Source of the DNA: Marinobacterium sp.
Lineage (GTDB): Bacteria > Pseudomonadota > Gammaproteobacteria > Pseudomonadales > Balneatricaceae
Assembly: GCA_003250495.1 (NCBI GenBank)
Contig: QKGH01000180.1
Span: 1 to 57,296 of the forward strand
Direction: 5' to 3'
DNA length: 57,296 bases
Below the pieces are notes generated by a model. The model made no database searches. It was not told where the DNA came from and was given only the letters and a program-made list of their open reading frames with translations. Of this stretch, positions 6,940-13,984 are shown in pieces (position 1 is the stretch's first letter; each line of letters opens with the position of its first letter). The position numbers and the translations under genes were made by a program.

Positions 6940-7416
6940 TTAGCCCTTGCGTGACAGGGTGATCCGATCCGGCAGGGAATCGATCAGGTCCACCTCCGGC
7001 GACAGACACACCTCGGTTACCGCCGTCTCCGCCGCGACCTGGCCATCCCAGGTCAGGCGCTGTTCGCCCGGCAGGCGCCGTTCACCGACAAAGCATCCAT
7101 CCGGATCGATCGACAGCGTGGCACAGTAGATGTTGCCGCGCACCCGCCCGCCCTTCTCTATATGCAGCGAATCGCAGATCAGATCGCCCTCGAACAGACC
7201 GCTGACGTTCACCGCATGGGCCCGGACCTGACCGCGAATCTGTCCGGCCCGACCGATGGAGATATCGTCGCTGGAGTCGATACGGCCATCGAAGCGGCCA
7301 TCGACATGCATTTTCCCGGAGATAGTGGTTTCACCGTGGAAGCGGTTACCTTCGGCGATGATCGTTACTGCAGATCGCCCTGATTTAGCGGATACATTGC
7401 GCTTAATGATTCCCAC
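6940..7416 (-). CDS. Bactofilin (DUF583 polymer-forming cytoskeletal protein)
   Basis: A 158-residue protein with the glycine- and hydrophobic-rich six-residue periodicity of the bactofilin beta-helix, for example GKMHVDGRFDGRI, VNVSGLFEGDLICDS and IEKGGRVRGNIYCATL. Bactofilins polymerise without nucleotide and scaffold cell-wall enzymes at the membrane. The short N-terminal segment MGIIKRN before the core may help membrane binding. The start is GTG at 7416, preceded by GGGGAGATACA; this places the first 52 bases inside the 3' end of the M23 peptidase gene. That arrangement is the common bactofilin-endopeptidase pair (compare CcmA/Csd1 of Helicobacter), in which the bactofilin positions the peptidase. 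Confidence 0.93.
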   Translation of the reverse strand: MGIIKRNVSAKSGRSAVTIIAEGNRFHGETTISGKMHVDGRFDGRIDSSDDISIGRAGQIRGQVRAHAVNVSGLFEGDLICDSLHIEKGGRVRGNIYCATLSIDPDGCFVGERRLPGEQRLTWDGQVAAETAVTEVCLSPEVDLIDSLPDRITLSRKG

Positions 7417-8360
7417 TGTATCTCCCCTACTGCACTGAATATCGACTCAAAATTATCCAACCCCCACTTCACGAAGGGCTCTGGGTCCAGTGGTGTATAC
7501 AGGTAACGCACCTCGTAGTGCAGATGCGGCCCGGTCGAGCGGCCGCTATTGCCGCTCAACCCGATCTGCTGCCCCTTGTGGACAAACTGCCCCGTTTTCA
7601 CCTGCACCTTGTCGAGGTGGCCGTAATAGGTCTTGAACCCCAGGTTATGCTGCAACCTGACCAGATAGCCGTAGCCGCTGCTCTTGCTGTAGCCGGCAAA
7701 CTCGACGACACCGTCCGCCGTCGCATAAACCGGCGTCCCGGTCGCGGCCTTGAAGTCCAGCCCCGTATGCATCACGCGCTTTTTCAACACCGGGTGCATG
7801 CGCATGCCGAAACGGTCGTTGATACGCTCGCTCTGGATCGGCACCCCGTTGGGAATACTGTAGAGCAGGAACAGGCGCTGACGTGCCGCCGTCTTGGCGA
7901 TAGTGGCTCGCTGCTCCAGGCTCTGCTCGACACCGCCCTCCTCTATCCCCAACATCGACTCCAGATTGCCGAGATCAGTTCCCATCTGCTCGTTCTGTTG
8001 TGCCAGTTGATCGCGTTCCGAAGAGAGTTGCGACAGCGCTTCCCCCAGCGAATCGAGCTCGCTCTTATACAGCTGCTGGGTACCCAGCATCAGTTCGAAC
8101 TGATCCGAGAGCTGCTCGTGCTCATCCTCCAGCACCGACAGGTCGTCGGTCGTCTTGACCAGCAACAGGTTGGAGACAAAAAAGCTGAGTCCCGACAAGA
8201 CGATAAACAGCGCGACGAGATACTTTGCCAGCTGGTTGAGTGTGTACTGCCGCGATCCATGCACAGTTGTCAGCGTTACTACTAATTTACGTCGCAATCT
8301 GGATACCCGCTGATGAACTGAAAATCGCGTTAATATAACGTCATTGCACGAAGATGTCAT
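7365..8360 (-). CDS. Membrane-anchored M23 (LytM-type) peptidoglycan endopeptidase
   Basis: A 331-residue protein with a cytoplasmic N-terminus, one membrane segment (about residues 46-68, AKYLVALFIVLSGLSFFVSN), a periplasmic coiled coil rich in Glu, Gln and Leu (about 72-150), and a C-terminal M23 domain. Zinc and catalytic motifs are present: HTGLDF (HxxxD), a central YYGHL, and HLHYEV (HxH). It should cut peptide cross-links in peptidoglycan. Its 3' end overlaps the bactofilin gene by 52 bases, so the two are probably translationally coupled and act together on cell shape. The ATG at 8360 has only a weak ribosome binding site, and a later start before the membrane segment is possible. Confidence 0.9.
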   Translation of the reverse strand: MTSSCNDVILTRFSVHQRVSRLRRKLVVTLTTVHGSRQYTLNQLAKYLVALFIVLSGLSFFVSNLLLVKTTDDLSVLEDEHEQLSDQFELMLGTQQLYKSELDSLGEALSQLSSERDQLAQQNEQMGTDLGNLESMLGIEEGGVEQSLEQRATIAKTAARQRLFLLYSIPNGVPIQSERINDRFGMRMHPVLKKRVMHTGLDFKAATGTPVYATADGVVEFAGYSKSSGYGYLVRLQHNLGFKTYYGHLDKVQVKTGQFVHKGQQIGLSGNSGRSTGPHLHYEVRYLYTPLDPEPFVKWGLDNFESIFSAVGEIQWESLSAMYPLNQGDLQ

Positions 8361-8441: not shown

Positions 8442-8527
8442 GCGTCCGCCCGCCAAACTAGTACTCGCATCGACTAACGATTTCGATAGACTACGGCGAT
8501 GCAGTACAACAATGACAGGGAATGACA

Positions 8528-10972
8528 ATGCTACCGCTGCAGCTCTACTTCTCGGACGAGTACAAGTTACTGACGGCCGCCCAGCTCCTGACCGGGGTCC
8601 AGCAAGCGACGCTGTGCGACGACCGGCTGCTGCTTGAGGGGATGCAGAAACTTGGCTTCCTGCAGGCGACGGATCTGCCGAAGGAGAGTCTGACCGCCAT
8701 CAAAGATGGCAAGCTTCCCCGCTTTACCCCGCCCGCACCAACGCCGGCCATCCTGACGCTCGAGCAGGCCAACCGCCAGTTCAACATCTACCTGAAACAG
8801 ATCGACACCCTGGCGGAACACCACTCGGACGGCGAGCCGGGCTATCTGACCGTCGATCCCTTTACCCTGCATCCCGCCTGCTCGCCGCTGTCCGGCGGAA
8901 CGGTAATCGACATGCTGACACGCAAGTTGGTGGCATTGGCGCAGATCGCCGAAGATCACGCACTGATCCTGGAGCTGGCACAACCCACCGAGGAGCAGCT
9001 GGAAAGCTGGCTGCAGATTCTTGAGCTGCTGATGCAGGAGCCCGCACTGCGCCACATTCCGGTCGCTATCTGCCTGAGCGCCACCTCCAAACGCCTGCTC
9101 CCGACCCTCGGTTACCTCGAGCGTCTGTGCCGGGATCGCACGCTGCAGCTCAGGATCAGGCTGACAGAGCACCCCTATCGAACCGGCGCCAGCTGGCCCT
9201 TCGCCTACACCACGCCGGTACTGGAGCATCCGCTCGCCATTGCCATGCACTTCGCCACCGCCTGCGCCTTCCTGGCCAGCGCGAATAACCAGCACCTGCT
9301 CCCCGAGTTGATACTGCACAGCCGCGGCCTGCTGGAGCTGACCCAGCCGCTGACCGGCAACCGCTGGCGCATCCGGCTGCAGGAAGCCAACCCGCCCACC
9401 CGGCCCAACGACAACAACGGCCCCGAAGGCCCCTGCCTGCTGCCGGGACTGGCGCCGGTCAGCCACCAGATCCATGAAACCCTGCACCAGCTCAACCAGA
9501 CCGCCAAGCGGGCGGTACCCATCATCGGCGGCCAGCGCAGCCCGGAAAACGCGGAGAAGATCCGCTACCGACCCGCCGAAATCGACCTGCCCGCCGGCAA
9601 CGTCGTGCCCGCCAGCGAACACCAGGTACGCCAGGCATTCGCGGTCTGTAGCGAGGCCCAGCGCGCCTGGGGCGAACTGTCGTTGTATGAACGCCGTGAC
9701 ATCATTCAGACCTTCGCCAACACACTGGCCGCCGAACAGGTCGAACTGGCGCTGCTGTGTGCCCAGGAAACCGGCATCCCTCTCAACGACTGTCTGCAGG
9801 AGATCCAGGAAGCGCTACGCCTGATCCACTGCCATCTGCAGCAGGCGGTCGACGTCATGGCCACCCAACCGCTGCCGTCGCGCGGCGACAGCACCTGCAT
9901 GCACCCGCTGCCGCGCGGCACCCTGCTCGGCCTGTTGCCCTGGAACCAGCCCTTAGCACCGTTCGCCACCATCGCCAGTGCCGTGCTGCTGACCGGCAAC
10001 GCCCTGCTGATCCGGCCCGCCTGCCCCGCCGCGCTGACCGCGACCCGGCTGTTCGACCTGCTGCTCAAAGCCGGCGTGCCCGGCGACCTGATCGCCCTGC
10101 TGCCCGGCGACATGGATGCGATCGGCAGCCACCTGCTGGACGACTACCGCCTGGAGGGGGTGCTGTTCAATGGCACCCCGGTCGCCGCCAACACGGTGCA
10201 GCAGTACATGGCCCGGCGCGTGGGGGCGCCGCCACTGCCGTTTTTGACCGATACCGGCGGGCGGCATGCGGTCATCGTCGATCGTGATTCCGACCCGGAA
10301 GTGCTGTTGCCCGTTTTGTTACGCGCCGCCCTGGCGCGCAACGGCCAGCACCCCGCCGCGCTACGGGTGCTGTATGTCGAGGAGGGGATCGCCGAGCAGA
10401 TGGAGGAGTTGCTAACGCAGGCGCTGCAATGGGTCCACATGGGCGCCCCGGAGGCACGCCAGACCGAACTCGGCCCGCTGATCAGCCGCGAGCAGATGGA
10501 TCGTACCTACCTGCATATAGAGCGCTTTCGCAGCAAAGGCCGCGTGGTGGCGCAACCGGTGCTGCCCGCCGAGTGGCACGAGAGCTATTTCGTCCCGCCC
10601 ACCCTGCTGCGGCTCTATTCGCTCGACGAACTGCAGGAAGCGATCGAGGCCCCGGTCATCCATCTGATCCGGTTCGACCGGGAGCAGATCGACCGCACCA
10701 TCGATGAGATCAACCGCTCCGGATTCGCCATGGCACTGACGCTCTACTCCGGTGACAGCGAACTCACCGAACGCCTTGGCCGCGAGGCCCGGGTCAGCGA
10801 GCTGAATCTGAACCCGAGCCAGCTCTACCCGGTCAGCGGCTATTGCCCCGGCTCCGGCAGCGGACTGTCGGGCACCGCCGCCAGACCCGGCACCGCCGAC
10901 TACCTGAAAGCGCTGGTACGCTATCAGATAGTCACCCGGGATGAGGGCTGCCGTAACACGCTGTTCAATTGA
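8528..10972 (+). CDS. PutA-like proline dehydrogenase/P5C dehydrogenase homologue, probable double pseudoenzyme
   Basis: The architecture follows bifunctional PutA: an N-terminal proline-dehydrogenase-like half (about residues 80-300) and a C-terminal aldehyde-dehydrogenase half (about 355-800). It is short at 814 residues against 1000-1300 for PutA. The barrel half keeps only traces (YLERLCRDRTLQLRIRLTEH where PutA has the RLVKGAYWD strand), and the ATHNA and RRLxEN motifs are absent. The dehydrogenase half aligns well (GLLPWNQPLAPFATIASAVL; SGLSGTAARPG), but the catalytic Cys motif GQxCxAL reads GQHPAAL (Pro609) and the ETGG glutamate is Asp575. Both active sites therefore look lost. The second ATG (8528) is preferred because an AGGGA site sits at the right distance. 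It converges with ppnN, with stops overlapping by 8 bases. A regulatory or scaffold role is inference. Confidence 0.75.
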   Translation: MLPLQLYFSDEYKLLTAAQLLTGVQQATLCDDRLLLEGMQKLGFLQATDLPKESLTAIKDGKLPRFTPPAPTPAILTLEQANRQFNIYLKQIDTLAEHHSDGEPGYLTVDPFTLHPACSPLSGGTVIDMLTRKLVALAQIAEDHALILELAQPTEEQLESWLQILELLMQEPALRHIPVAICLSATSKRLLPTLGYLERLCRDRTLQLRIRLTEHPYRTGASWPFAYTTPVLEHPLAIAMHFATACAFLASANNQHLLPELILHSRGLLELTQPLTGNRWRIRLQEANPPTRPNDNNGPEGPCLLPGLAPVSHQIHETLHQLNQTAKRAVPIIGGQRSPENAEKIRYRPAEIDLPAGNVVPASEHQVRQAFAVCSEAQRAWGELSLYERRDIIQTFANTLAAEQVELALLCAQETGIPLNDCLQEIQEALRLIHCHLQQAVDVMATQPLPSRGDSTCMHPLPRGTLLGLLPWNQPLAPFATIASAVLLTGNALLIRPACPAALTATRLFDLLLKAGVPGDLIALLPGDMDAIGSHLLDDYRLEGVLFNGTPVAANTVQQYMARRVGAPPLPFLTDTGGRHAVIVDRDSDPEVLLPVLLRAALARNGQHPAALRVLYVEEGIAEQMEELLTQALQWVHMGAPEARQTELGPLISREQMDRTYLHIERFRSKGRVVAQPVLPAEWHESYFVPPTLLRLYSLDELQEAIEAPVIHLIRFDREQIDRTIDEINRSGFAMALTLYSGDSELTERLGREARVSELNLNPSQLYPVSGYCPGSGSGLSGTAARPGTADYLKALVRYQIVTRDEGCRNTLFN

Positions 10973-12356
10973 CCGCGGCCGGCTCCGGCCGCGCCAGCCT
11001 GAAGCAGGGCGTGTACTCTTCGTAGTTGATCTTCATCCGGCGCTGCTCGACGAAGGCGGTAAGCAGACGATCGAGTGCGCCCATCACCTCGGCCTCGCCC
11101 TGTAACTCGAACGGGCCATGCTCCTCGATGGCCCGAATCCCCGGCTCCTTGACGTTCCCCGCCACGATACCGGACAGCGCGCAGCGCAACTGCGCGGCCA
11201 GCTCATGGTCGGGCAGACTGCGTGACAGGCACAGCCCGGCCATATTGGCATGGGTCGGTTCGAACGGCCGCTGCAGCTGCAGCGGGATATGCAGCTGCCA
11301 GTTGTAATGGTAGGACTCGCCCACCGCCTTGCGGTGCAGCGTCACCTGATCGAGCAGCACGCGGGAACGCTCGGCGACGCGGTGCGGATCGTCGATGATG
11401 ATCTCGTACAGTCCACGCGCCCGCTCCCCCAACGTATCGCGGATAAAGGCATCCACGGTGTCGAAATAGGCCTCGCTGCCCGCCGGGCCGGTAAAGATGA
11501 ACGGGAAGGGTATGTCGCGGTTCTCCTCCCGCAGCAGGATACCGAGCATATAGAGGATCTCCTCGGCAGTCCCCGCGCCGCCCGGAAATACCACGATACC
11601 ATGCCCCAGGCGAACGAACGCCTCGAGACGCTTCTCGATATCCGGCATGATGATCAGCTCGTTGACGATCGGGTTGGGTGACTCCGCCGCGATGATGCCC
11701 GGCTCGGTGACACCCACATAGCGCGCCTGCTGGATACGCTGTTTGGCATGCGCGATCGTGGCCCCCTTCATCGGCCCCTTCATCGCACCGGGGCCGCAAC
11801 CGGTACAGATATTCATGCCCCGCAGGCCGAGCTCGTAACCGACCTTCTTGGTGTAGTCATATTCATGCCGGCTGATCGAGTGGCCGCCCCAGCACACCAT
11901 CAGGTTGGGTTTGATATGCGGGCGCAACGCGTTGGCGTGGCGCAGGATATGGAACACCATGTTCGTCGCCATCGCCGAGCCCTGCAGGCTGTCGCAGCAT
12001 TTATCGAACTCGTCCTCGACATAGAGCAGGTCGCGCAGCACCGCAAACAGATGCTCGCGTATCCCCTGGATGATCCGACCATCGACGAATGCCGAGGCCG
12101 GTGCGTTGATCAGGTCGAGCTGGACGCCCCGATGCTTCTGACTGATCTGGACATCGAAACCGCTGAACCGCTCCAGCACCGTACGGGTACTATCCAACTC
12201 GCTCCCGCAGTTCAGCACCGCCAGCGCACATTGACGCAGTAACCGGTACAGGCCGCCCTGGCTTTTATCCTGGAGTTTGGCAACTTCATAAGGCGAGAGC
12301 ATGTCGAGGCTCTCGAGCGGTGTGACGCTGGCGTTGACAAAGGCTTCGGTCATCAT
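10965..12356 (-). CDS. ppnN: Nucleotide 5'-monophosphate nucleosidase PpnN (YgdH family)
   Basis: A 463-residue member of the large LOG-type family to which E. coli PpnN belongs; PpnN hydrolyses purine and pyrimidine nucleoside monophosphates to base and ribose phosphate and is stimulated by (p)ppGpp. Motifs visible are VCWGGHSISRHEYDY, NICTGCGPGAMKGPMKGA, TEPGIIAAESPNPIVNELI, the LOG core PGGAGTAEEILYMLG, and the C-terminal GIVAGNVKEPGIRAIEEHGP. The frame extends to 12428, but an ideal AAGGAGG site lies just before two adjacent ATGs at 12356 and 12353, so the start is there. The 225-base gap to the divergent PhoH gene should hold promoters for both. Confidence 0.93.
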   Translation of the reverse strand: MMTEAFVNASVTPLESLDMLSPYEVAKLQDKSQGGLYRLLRQCALAVLNCGSELDSTRTVLERFSGFDVQISQKHRGVQLDLINAPASAFVDGRIIQGIREHLFAVLRDLLYVEDEFDKCCDSLQGSAMATNMVFHILRHANALRPHIKPNLMVCWGGHSISRHEYDYTKKVGYELGLRGMNICTGCGPGAMKGPMKGATIAHAKQRIQQARYVGVTEPGIIAAESPNPIVNELIIMPDIEKRLEAFVRLGHGIVVFPGGAGTAEEILYMLGILLREENRDIPFPFIFTGPAGSEAYFDTVDAFIRDTLGERARGLYEIIIDDPHRVAERSRVLLDQVTLHRKAVGESYHYNWQLHIPLQLQRPFEPTHANMAGLCLSRSLPDHELAAQLRCALSGIVAGNVKEPGIRAIEEHGPFELQGEAEVMGALDRLLTAFVEQRRMKINYEEYTPCFRLARPEPAAVN

Positions 12357-12581
12357 GACCACCTCCTTGCTCAGGCAGATAAAAACAGCTCCCGGCCGGC
12401 GGCGCTGACCGGGGTCAACCGCCTTCAATATGAACTGATATCGGCGGTTTGGCTACTATCACTTATAAAAAACAGCAACTTGCAGATAGGCAGACAGGAA
12501 ATCTCCGGGCCAAATTAGATTGTAAATAGCGCGGCCATGAATTAGTTTGAACCCAGAGCCCTCCGCAGAAGGAACCACCCG

Positions 12582-13970
12582 ATGACTGCGTCTAAGCTGT
12601 ATCTCCTCGACACCAACGTGCTGCTGCACGACCCCAAGTGCCTATACGAGTTCAAGGAGCAGGATATCGCGATACCGATGACCGTGCTCGAAGAGCTCGA
12701 TGACATCAAGGATCGCAAGAAGAATGTGGCCGCCGAGGCTCGCCATGCCATCCGAGCTATCGACGACATCCTCAGTACCGCCACCAACTCCAGCCAGATC
12801 ACCAAAGGGGTGCAGATCAAACTCGAGGGCAAGGAGCGCACGATCAAGCTCGGCCATCTCTCCATCTTCCCCGACCATGAGTTGACCGCCCGCCAGGGAT
12901 TCCTGCCCGACGAGCGCAACAAGGACAACAAGATCATCAACTGCGCGCTGCACCTGCAGGCCACCTATCCGCACCGCCAGGTGATCCTGGTCACCAAGGA
13001 CATCAACATGCGCCTGAAGGCGCTCGGTGCCGGCCTGCAGCGCGTCGAGGATTACCGCACCGACCAGCTGGTCTCCGACATCGAGTTGCTGCCGGCCGGT
13101 CATCAGCACCTGGACAAGCCGTTCTGGGAGGGGGTGGAGCAGGTAGAGAGTTTTCAGGAGGACGGCAAGACCTACCACAAGGTCGACCGCGCCCTGCTGC
13201 CCGACACCTACCCCAACGAATATATCTACGATGACAGCCGCGATTTCGCCGCCCGTACCGTCCGGACCGAGGGCGACAAGGTCACCCTGCTCGATTTGGG
13301 CTATGAGCACCTGATGCAGCAGAGCTGCTGGGGTATCCAGCCGGTCAACATTCAGCAGGCGTTCGCCATGCAGTCGCTGCTGGATCCGAACATCGACCTC
13401 AGCATCTTGCTCGGCGCCGCCGGCTCCGGTAAGACCCTGATCGCCCTGGCCTGCGCGCTGGAGATGGTGATCGAGGAGCGCCGTTACAACAAGATCATCG
13501 TCACCCGCTCGACCCCGCCGGTGGCCGAGGATATCGGCTTCCTGCCCGGTACCGAGGAGGAGAAGATGACCCCCTGGCTCAGCTCCATCAACGACAACCT
13601 GGAAGCGATGCACGAGCACGACGAGCGTCCGCAGAGCAGCGTCAAATACGCCATCGAGAAAGCCAACATCCAGTTCAAGTCGCTGAACTTCATCCGCGGC
13701 CGCAGCATCCAGAACGCGATCGTGCTGATCGACGAGTCGCAGAACCTGACCCCGCAGCAGCTGAAGACGATCCTGACCCGCTGCGGCAAGAACACCAAGA
13801 TGGTCTGCCTCGGCAACCTGGCGCAGATCGACTCCAACTACCTGACCGCGCTGACCTCGGGCCTGACCTACATCGTCGAGCGCTTCCGCAACTTCGAAGG
13901 CTCCGCCAGCATCCACTTCGAGGGGATCTTCCGTTCCCGCCTGGCCGAGTACGCCGAAGAGCAGCTCTGA
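12582..13970 (+). CDS. PIN-PhoH family ATPase
   Basis: A 462-residue fusion of an N-terminal PIN ribonuclease-like domain (LDTNVLLHDP at residues 9-18, acidic TKDINMR near 140) and a C-terminal PhoH ATPase (Walker A GAAGSGKTLIA near 278, Walker B IVLIDESQNL near 385). This is the long PhoH2-type form, for which related proteins show RNA-unwinding and RNase activity. The PIN acidic residues (Asp9 and the later Asp/Glu pairs) appear intact. It stands alone, divergent from ppnN, with a GC-rich hairpin after its stop. It should not be confused with the short PhoH of the ybeY/ybeZ locus, which lacks PIN. Confidence 0.92.
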   Translation: MTASKLYLLDTNVLLHDPKCLYEFKEQDIAIPMTVLEELDDIKDRKKNVAAEARHAIRAIDDILSTATNSSQITKGVQIKLEGKERTIKLGHLSIFPDHELTARQGFLPDERNKDNKIINCALHLQATYPHRQVILVTKDINMRLKALGAGLQRVEDYRTDQLVSDIELLPAGHQHLDKPFWEGVEQVESFQEDGKTYHKVDRALLPDTYPNEYIYDDSRDFAARTVRTEGDKVTLLDLGYEHLMQQSCWGIQPVNIQQAFAMQSLLDPNIDLSILLGAAGSGKTLIALACALEMVIEERRYNKIIVTRSTPPVAEDIGFLPGTEEEKMTPWLSSINDNLEAMHEHDERPQSSVKYAIEKANIQFKSLNFIRGRSIQNAIVLIDESQNLTPQQLKTILTRCGKNTKMVCLGNLAQIDSNYLTALTSGLTYIVERFRNFEGSASIHFEGIFRSRLAEYAEEQL

Positions 13971-13984
13971 CCCTCTGCGCACCC

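Follow-up and report, generated by a model that had tools for sequence, protein, structure and literature searches.

A PutA-like protein of Marinobacterium that lacks both catalytic centres and is maintained by purifying selection

The whole stretch of Marinobacterium sp. DNA that was analysed (57,296 nucleotides; the window) contains a gene of PutA descent, referred to here as pseudo-PutA (8528..10972, + strand), which encodes a protein of 814 aa followed by a stop codon. The open frame at 8522-10972 (+ strand) is uninterrupted and comprises 816 codons when counted from its first ATG, an alternative in-frame start at 8522. The start was set at 8528 ('MLP...'), where all 13 copies of the gene described below have an ATG with Leu and Pro codons directly after it; upstream of this point the open frame runs longer in some copies. 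In the predicted protein, an N-terminal arm is followed by a PRODH part of reduced length and then by an ALDH domain. The gene is flanked by a divergently oriented M23 peptidase gene (7365..8360, - strand) and by the convergent ppnN gene (10965..12428, - strand), which overlaps its 3' end by 8 bases; both neighbours served as markers of the genomic slot. Long open frames antisense to phoH and to several other genes (e.g. window 12642-13982, - strand) are expected at high GC and are probably not genes.

A candidate -10-like element, TAnACT (8487..8492, + strand), begins 41 bases 5' of the ATG. This motif, chosen by eye beforehand, after inspection of the upstream regions, occurs within 150 bases in 10 of the 12 regions counted (G073 set aside), compared with a mean of 1.5 and a maximum of 7 of 12 in 2000 mononucleotide shuffles. 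Its location at -39 to -48 in nine of the 12 regions suggests that pseudo-PutA has its own promoter.

The only Pfam family seen in the window protein is Aldedh (218 bits, above the gathering cut-off of 23), which was also matched by all 10 copies scanned with Pfam. Pfam Pro_dh gave no match in the window protein; five of the 10 copies scanned matched it at E <= 0.01 (best 2.4e-15), and the two copies from the genus designated g4 lie on either side of the 27-bit cut-off, at 29.2 and 25.5 bits. On the NCBIfam profile of PutA (PRK11904) the protein scored 346.6 bits, under the equivalog cut-off of 747, versus 1390.6-1585.7 bits for three full-length PutAs. A profile built from seven copies matched PutA in the PRODH remnant with an i-E of 3.4e-12. 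These three scores exceed chance and confirm the homology to PutA that a preliminary description had assigned to the 814-codon frame.

The ALDH domain (residues 346-805; 9563..10942, + strand) lacks both the catalytic Cys and the catalytic Glu. Pro609 (codon 10352..10354, + strand) is found at the Cys position (GQHPAAL) and Asp575 (codon 10250..10252, + strand) at the position of the general-base Glu (TDTGGRHA). A motif alignment bore out these two replacements and the change of the FGP motif to EAP, all as originally described, and gave no sign of a catalytic residue relocated elsewhere. When a profile of the orthologues was aligned to Sinorhizobium PutA, the two positions corresponded to chain indices 846 and 812, which we take to be Cys844 and Glu810, assuming an offset of two (the chain in the crystal being a Cys variant itself). 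All 20 PutAs compared have the catalytic Cys and Glu, and all 13 pseudo-PutA copies lack both. Orthologues with the same Pro and Asp had been suggested as a check; the loss of Cys and Glu is shared, but Pro and Asp are not conserved signatures, since the copies have P, H or R in place of the Cys and D, H or N in place of the Glu. Within the six copies of genus g1, Asp575 is fixed and His608 is present in five. The C844S change is reported to disable the dehydrogenase of SmPutA (PMC12398946).

The PRODH remnant (residues 79-265; 8762..9322, + strand) is truncated besides being mutated. The ATHNA, RLVKGAYWD and RR..EN motifs are absent from this half, as had been noted before, and the six motif positions checked are replaced or variable. 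The same applies to the barrel positions for FAD and substrate, which sets this half apart from that of a PutA. The 79-residue alpha-domain stretch, which covers the core of the domain, beta7 and RRLLENGANSSF are gone from all 13 copies, as is beta8, save for two of its seven columns in one copy. The resulting length is 814 aa, versus 1039-1049 aa in the PutAs that occupy the same slot in other genera. PMC10211241 defines pseudoenzymes as lacking catalytic motifs that are conserved in the enzyme family to which they belong, and this description applies to pseudo-PutA.

The suggestion that the protein might bind DNA was not upheld. No DNA-binding Pfam family was detected in the window protein or in the 10 copies scanned, nor is there an N-terminal DNA-binding domain as in trifunctional PutA, a regulator. 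Each of three full-length PutAs scanned contains PF14850 ('DNA-binding domain of proline dehydrogenase'), and the same region is deleted in the pseudo copies; DNA binding was rejected on these grounds.

Structure prediction for the full-length protein gave a model of moderate confidence (pLDDT 73.9, pTM 0.57). Its ALDH part matched ALDH structures with Z of ~37-38 and rmsd of ~3 over ~450 residues, e.g. 3prl_D (Z 37.8, rmsd 2.9, 456 residues). The full model also matched PutA, across ~790 columns but at an rmsd of about 12, so that it does not fix how the two halves are arranged. When the N-terminal 300 residues were modelled alone (pLDDT 74.7, pTM 0.78), the matches listed to the PRODH part of PutA had Z of 22.1-23.3 and rmsd of 3.3-4.4 over 261-274 residues, and the best among the matches listed was PutA (Z 23.3, rmsd 3.4, 263 residues). 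This match extends to chain residues 455-496, so the last strand may replace a deleted one. The ALDH fold and a PRODH fold of reduced size are therefore predicted to persist without the catalytic residues. Silence of the VIA or Foldseek results on a family was never counted as absence.

Full-length copies of pseudo-PutA were found in 13 of the 116 genomes of the family that were scanned: six in g1 (the genus of the window, whose own copy is counted), five in g6 and two in g4, three related genera of marine bacteria. The nine carriers identified by name are all Marinobacterium species. An order-wide sample (390 genomes, two candidates scored in each) yielded at least six full-length matches, and those among the matches listed all belong to g1 and g6. 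None of the 13 copies, once extracted and translated, contains an internal stop; single stops in the family-scan matches of G012, G075 and G077 are present neither in these extracted copies nor in the order-wide scan.

The gene order hrpA, fadD, yafJ, bactofilin, M23 peptidase, pseudo-PutA, ppnN, phoH is identical in the window and in 12 other loci, although in G085, where the locus lies on a short contig, only the part from yafJ to phoH is visible. The names hrpA, fadD and yafJ are our own assumption from the Pfam families of these neighbours, unlike those of ppnN, phoH, the M23 peptidase and bactofilin. In all nine outgroup genomes whose slot was inspected (genera g7, g13, g15 and g16), it is occupied by a PutA that is 1039-1049 aa long and has both the catalytic Cys and the Glu; these slots were picked from the PutA hits of the family scan, so that PutA-less slots in the same genera could have been missed. 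A tenth PutA that was fetched (G020, genus g14) is located outside the slot. In four of the outgroup genomes a thiolase-like gene, named by eye, adjoins the slot PutA (L097:6951-8135, L098:6816-8000, L099:12636-13820 and L110:6618-7802); the gap between the M23 peptidase gene and pseudo-PutA in the window is too short to contain it.

The slot is empty in G006, G026, G072 and G076, in which only 51-324 bases separate the M23 match from the ppnN match. Four g4 genomes (G010, G025, G086 and G088) have retained ppnN, phoH and yafJ and lack pseudo-PutA, the M23 peptidase gene and the bactofilin gene, the absence of the last two (loci L123, L124, L125 and L126) referring to the slot only. G007, in which a ppnN match is also missing, was excluded from the slot count. 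A search for scars in seven empty slots returned only matches at chance level. A functional link of pseudo-PutA to the M23 peptidase and bactofilin was considered and found weak, since G006, G026, G072 and G076 lost the pseudo copy alone.

In a tree of the ALDH domain, the 13 pseudo copies form one side of a branch with support of 100/100, and the same copies together with eight slot PutAs of g15, g16 and g7 form one side of a further branch (99/98.9), while the slot PutA of g13 groups with other PutAs, apart from the remaining slot PutAs. A narrower clade of the pseudo copies with g15 is compatible with the data but not demonstrated by them (p-AU 0.39). Five neighbouring genes were used for a quick tree with g13 as the root, in which g1, g6 and g4 (21 genomes) form one clade (SH-aLRT 100). 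On this tree the pseudo state corresponds to one origin and four later losses, on the assumption that a lost gene never returns. Because the ALDH tree has long branches, the single origin leans also on the slot and on the shared deletions. The presence of PutAs with both residues in the outgroup slots, and of 13 copies without them in the same slot, argues for inactivation in place, once. Slot, deletions and tree agree, and their most economical reading is that one inactivation would have taken place before the three genera split. The gene appears to have been deleted at least four times afterwards, which would make it dispensable over time.

Seven pairs of copies were used in attempts to estimate dN/dS, with synonymous sites near saturation in most; two of the pairs gave no value because these sites were saturated. 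In four pairs the whole-gene dN/dS was 0.113 (bootstrap 0.088-0.141), 0.135, 0.217 and 0.063, with upper bootstrap limits of at most 0.27. The window and mangrovicola copies gave 0.386, and the neighbours in that pair 0.05-0.29. Both the PRODH remnant and the ALDH part were below 0.2 in each of the four pairs, and in one pair the linker reached 0.54 and the N-terminus 0.33. The neighbouring genes in the same four pairs gave mostly 0 to 0.12 (single-pair values: bactofilin 0.15, fadD 0.21, hrpA 0.22), so that pseudo-PutA evolves faster than most of them. K-type PutAs (see below), used as a control, gave 0.08, 0.11 and 0.20 in three pairs. Under neutrality, ~37 stops per lineage would be expected since the split of lutimaris and mangrovicola, and none was seen. 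Neither the frame-breaking changes nor the neutral dN/dS expected of a pseudogene was observed. Retention by selection rather than decay, which had been proposed from the intact frame of a single copy, is thus supported by 13 stop-free copies, dN/dS below 1, one clade and one origin.

The distribution of this constraint differs from that in PutA. At 21 ALDH catalytic and cofactor sites the median rate in the pseudo copies was 0.52 versus 0.67 for the domain (p 0.067), and in PutAs 0.06 versus 0.69; the slowness of these sites in PutAs is by construction, because they were taken from motifs conserved in PutAs. Expressed relative to each set (pseudo copies or PutAs), the rate of the whole ALDH domain is about equal (0.67 and 0.62), whereas that of the PRODH remnant is 1.01 in the pseudo copies versus 0.50 in PutAs and that of the N-terminal 45 residues 0.69 versus 1.2. 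The N-terminal arm (residues 1-45; 8528..8662, + strand) and residues 654-704 (10487..10639, + strand), which contain the IERFR and LLRLYSLDELQ stretches, are relatively slower than in PutAs. The clearest gains of constraint, in windows picked after looking at the data, are at residues 1-20, 655-676 and 690-704. The catalytic sites have thus been released from most of their constraint, which is comparatively stronger along two ALDH stretches and at the N-terminus. Some residues of the former site persist: P709, S781, G782 and T783 are invariant in the 13 copies, Asn762 is kept in 11 of them, and the Thr576 position holds T or S. The pseudo copies share 69 invariant residues, only four of which (P111, E155, E618 and Y697) do not occur in any of the 20 PutAs; we know of no catalytic set resembling these four.

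Another PutA match is present in each of the 13 carriers, in G085 only as a fragment at a contig edge. The assembly to which the window belongs (490 contigs, 87.5% complete) also encodes, on contig C446, a full-length PutA (1065 aa) distinct from pseudo-PutA, and proline could therefore be used without the latter. According to our own labels, derived from a tree and from identity, the second PutA is of the K-type only in seven carriers, of the T-type only in two, of both types in two and of a third type in two. Among eight genomes without pseudo-PutA, the corresponding numbers are one, one, two and three, and one genome has none. Obligate pairing with one PutA type was rejected, as the second PutA varies. 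Beside the pseudo copy, G003 and G004 contain only a long T-type PutA (~1207 aa) at E 1e-60, and the K-type is present in nine of the 11 other carriers.

Pseudo-PutA is probably a double pseudoenzyme that has been retained because it binds something, serves as a scaffold or regulates, most likely through regions that include the N-terminal arm and ALDH residues 654-704. In the ancestor of the three genera, a full-length PutA at this locus would have been stripped of its two catalytic centres and of some of the PRODH half, and the remaining shell would have been retained by selection as a non-catalytic protein. A partner or ligand would then be bound through surfaces including the arm and the 654-704 stretch, and the protein would act as a putative scaffold or regulator. 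We infer that PutA activity is absent and that the protein has a binding role, with these two regions as putative surfaces. Slow decay of a remnant on its way out would agree with the four or more independent losses and with evolution faster than that of most neighbours, but we regard it as very unlikely in view of the 13 stop-free copies, whose common origin is older than the split of the three genera, the dN/dS of 0.06-0.22 in four pairs and the shared upstream TAnACT element. A decaying pseudogene was accordingly rejected as the main reading, being at odds with dN/dS, intact frames and age.

Alternatively, the protein might be a non-catalytic partner subunit of a second PutA in the same cell, joined to it via ALDH oligomerisation elements and tuning its activity. 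Such pairing would be consistent with the PutA match in every carrier, with the predicted intact ALDH fold and with a fairly constrained C-terminal strand at residues 788-806 (0.54; PutAs 0.68), and it would have an analogue in an inactive ALDH2 variant, which is reported to inhibit wild-type ALDH2 in mixed tetramers (PMC10211241). We nevertheless consider it unlikely: species vary in the type of their second PutA, which speaks against a single constant PutA partner. The fast flap stretch at residues 442-463 (1.11) is not decisive, as PutAs show an even higher rate there (1.7). A remodelled pocket with new chemistry appears improbable as well. What stands at the former Cys and Glu positions varies from genus to genus, which speaks against a new chemistry common to all copies, the 21 sites evolve near the domain average and so few invariant residues are foreign to PutA, even though Asp575 and His608 are fixed or nearly so in g1, a few residues of the former site are still invariant and both folds are predicted to persist. 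Returning to a non-catalytic binding protein as the preferred reading, we suggest, tentatively, that the locus may record the change of an entire bifunctional metabolic enzyme into a regulatory or scaffold protein in a bacterial lineage, in which a single ancestor would have lost both sites, the shell would have lasted for as long as the three genera have existed and selection would have moved to new elements.

Pseudo-PutA belongs to the PutA family by common descent, according to trees and profile alignment, and also by fold in the predicted model. It resembles bifunctional PutA (PRK11904) in domain order, in homology over most of its length and in the slot occupied in related genera, but is shorter and has lost the catalytic residues of both halves as well as the alpha-domain core, beta7 and beta8. 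Long PutAs carry a C-terminal ALDH superfamily domain, a non-catalytic ALDH-like domain; this is likewise found within the PutA family, but as an extra domain of an active PutA, whereas pseudo-PutA is encoded by a gene of its own and retains the domain order of PutA. Human ALDH16, described as a pseudoenzyme and proposed to be a binding protein (PMC8160307), also has an ALDH fold without the catalytic Cys. This human protein differs in architecture and is not known to have a PRODH remnant. Pseudoenzymes and catalytically dead ALDHs are thus already known, with non-catalytic ALDH precedents in two publications (PMC8160307, PMC10211241). A literature search, the coverage of which mostly leaves out subscription journals, found no title reporting a PutA without both centres. 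A PutA without either centre, a full-length slot PutA in sister genera, several losses and a second PutA in the cell together constitute a natural experiment in the transition from enzyme to non-enzyme. The gene is also a likely annotation trap, since homology alone points to PutA or ALDH.
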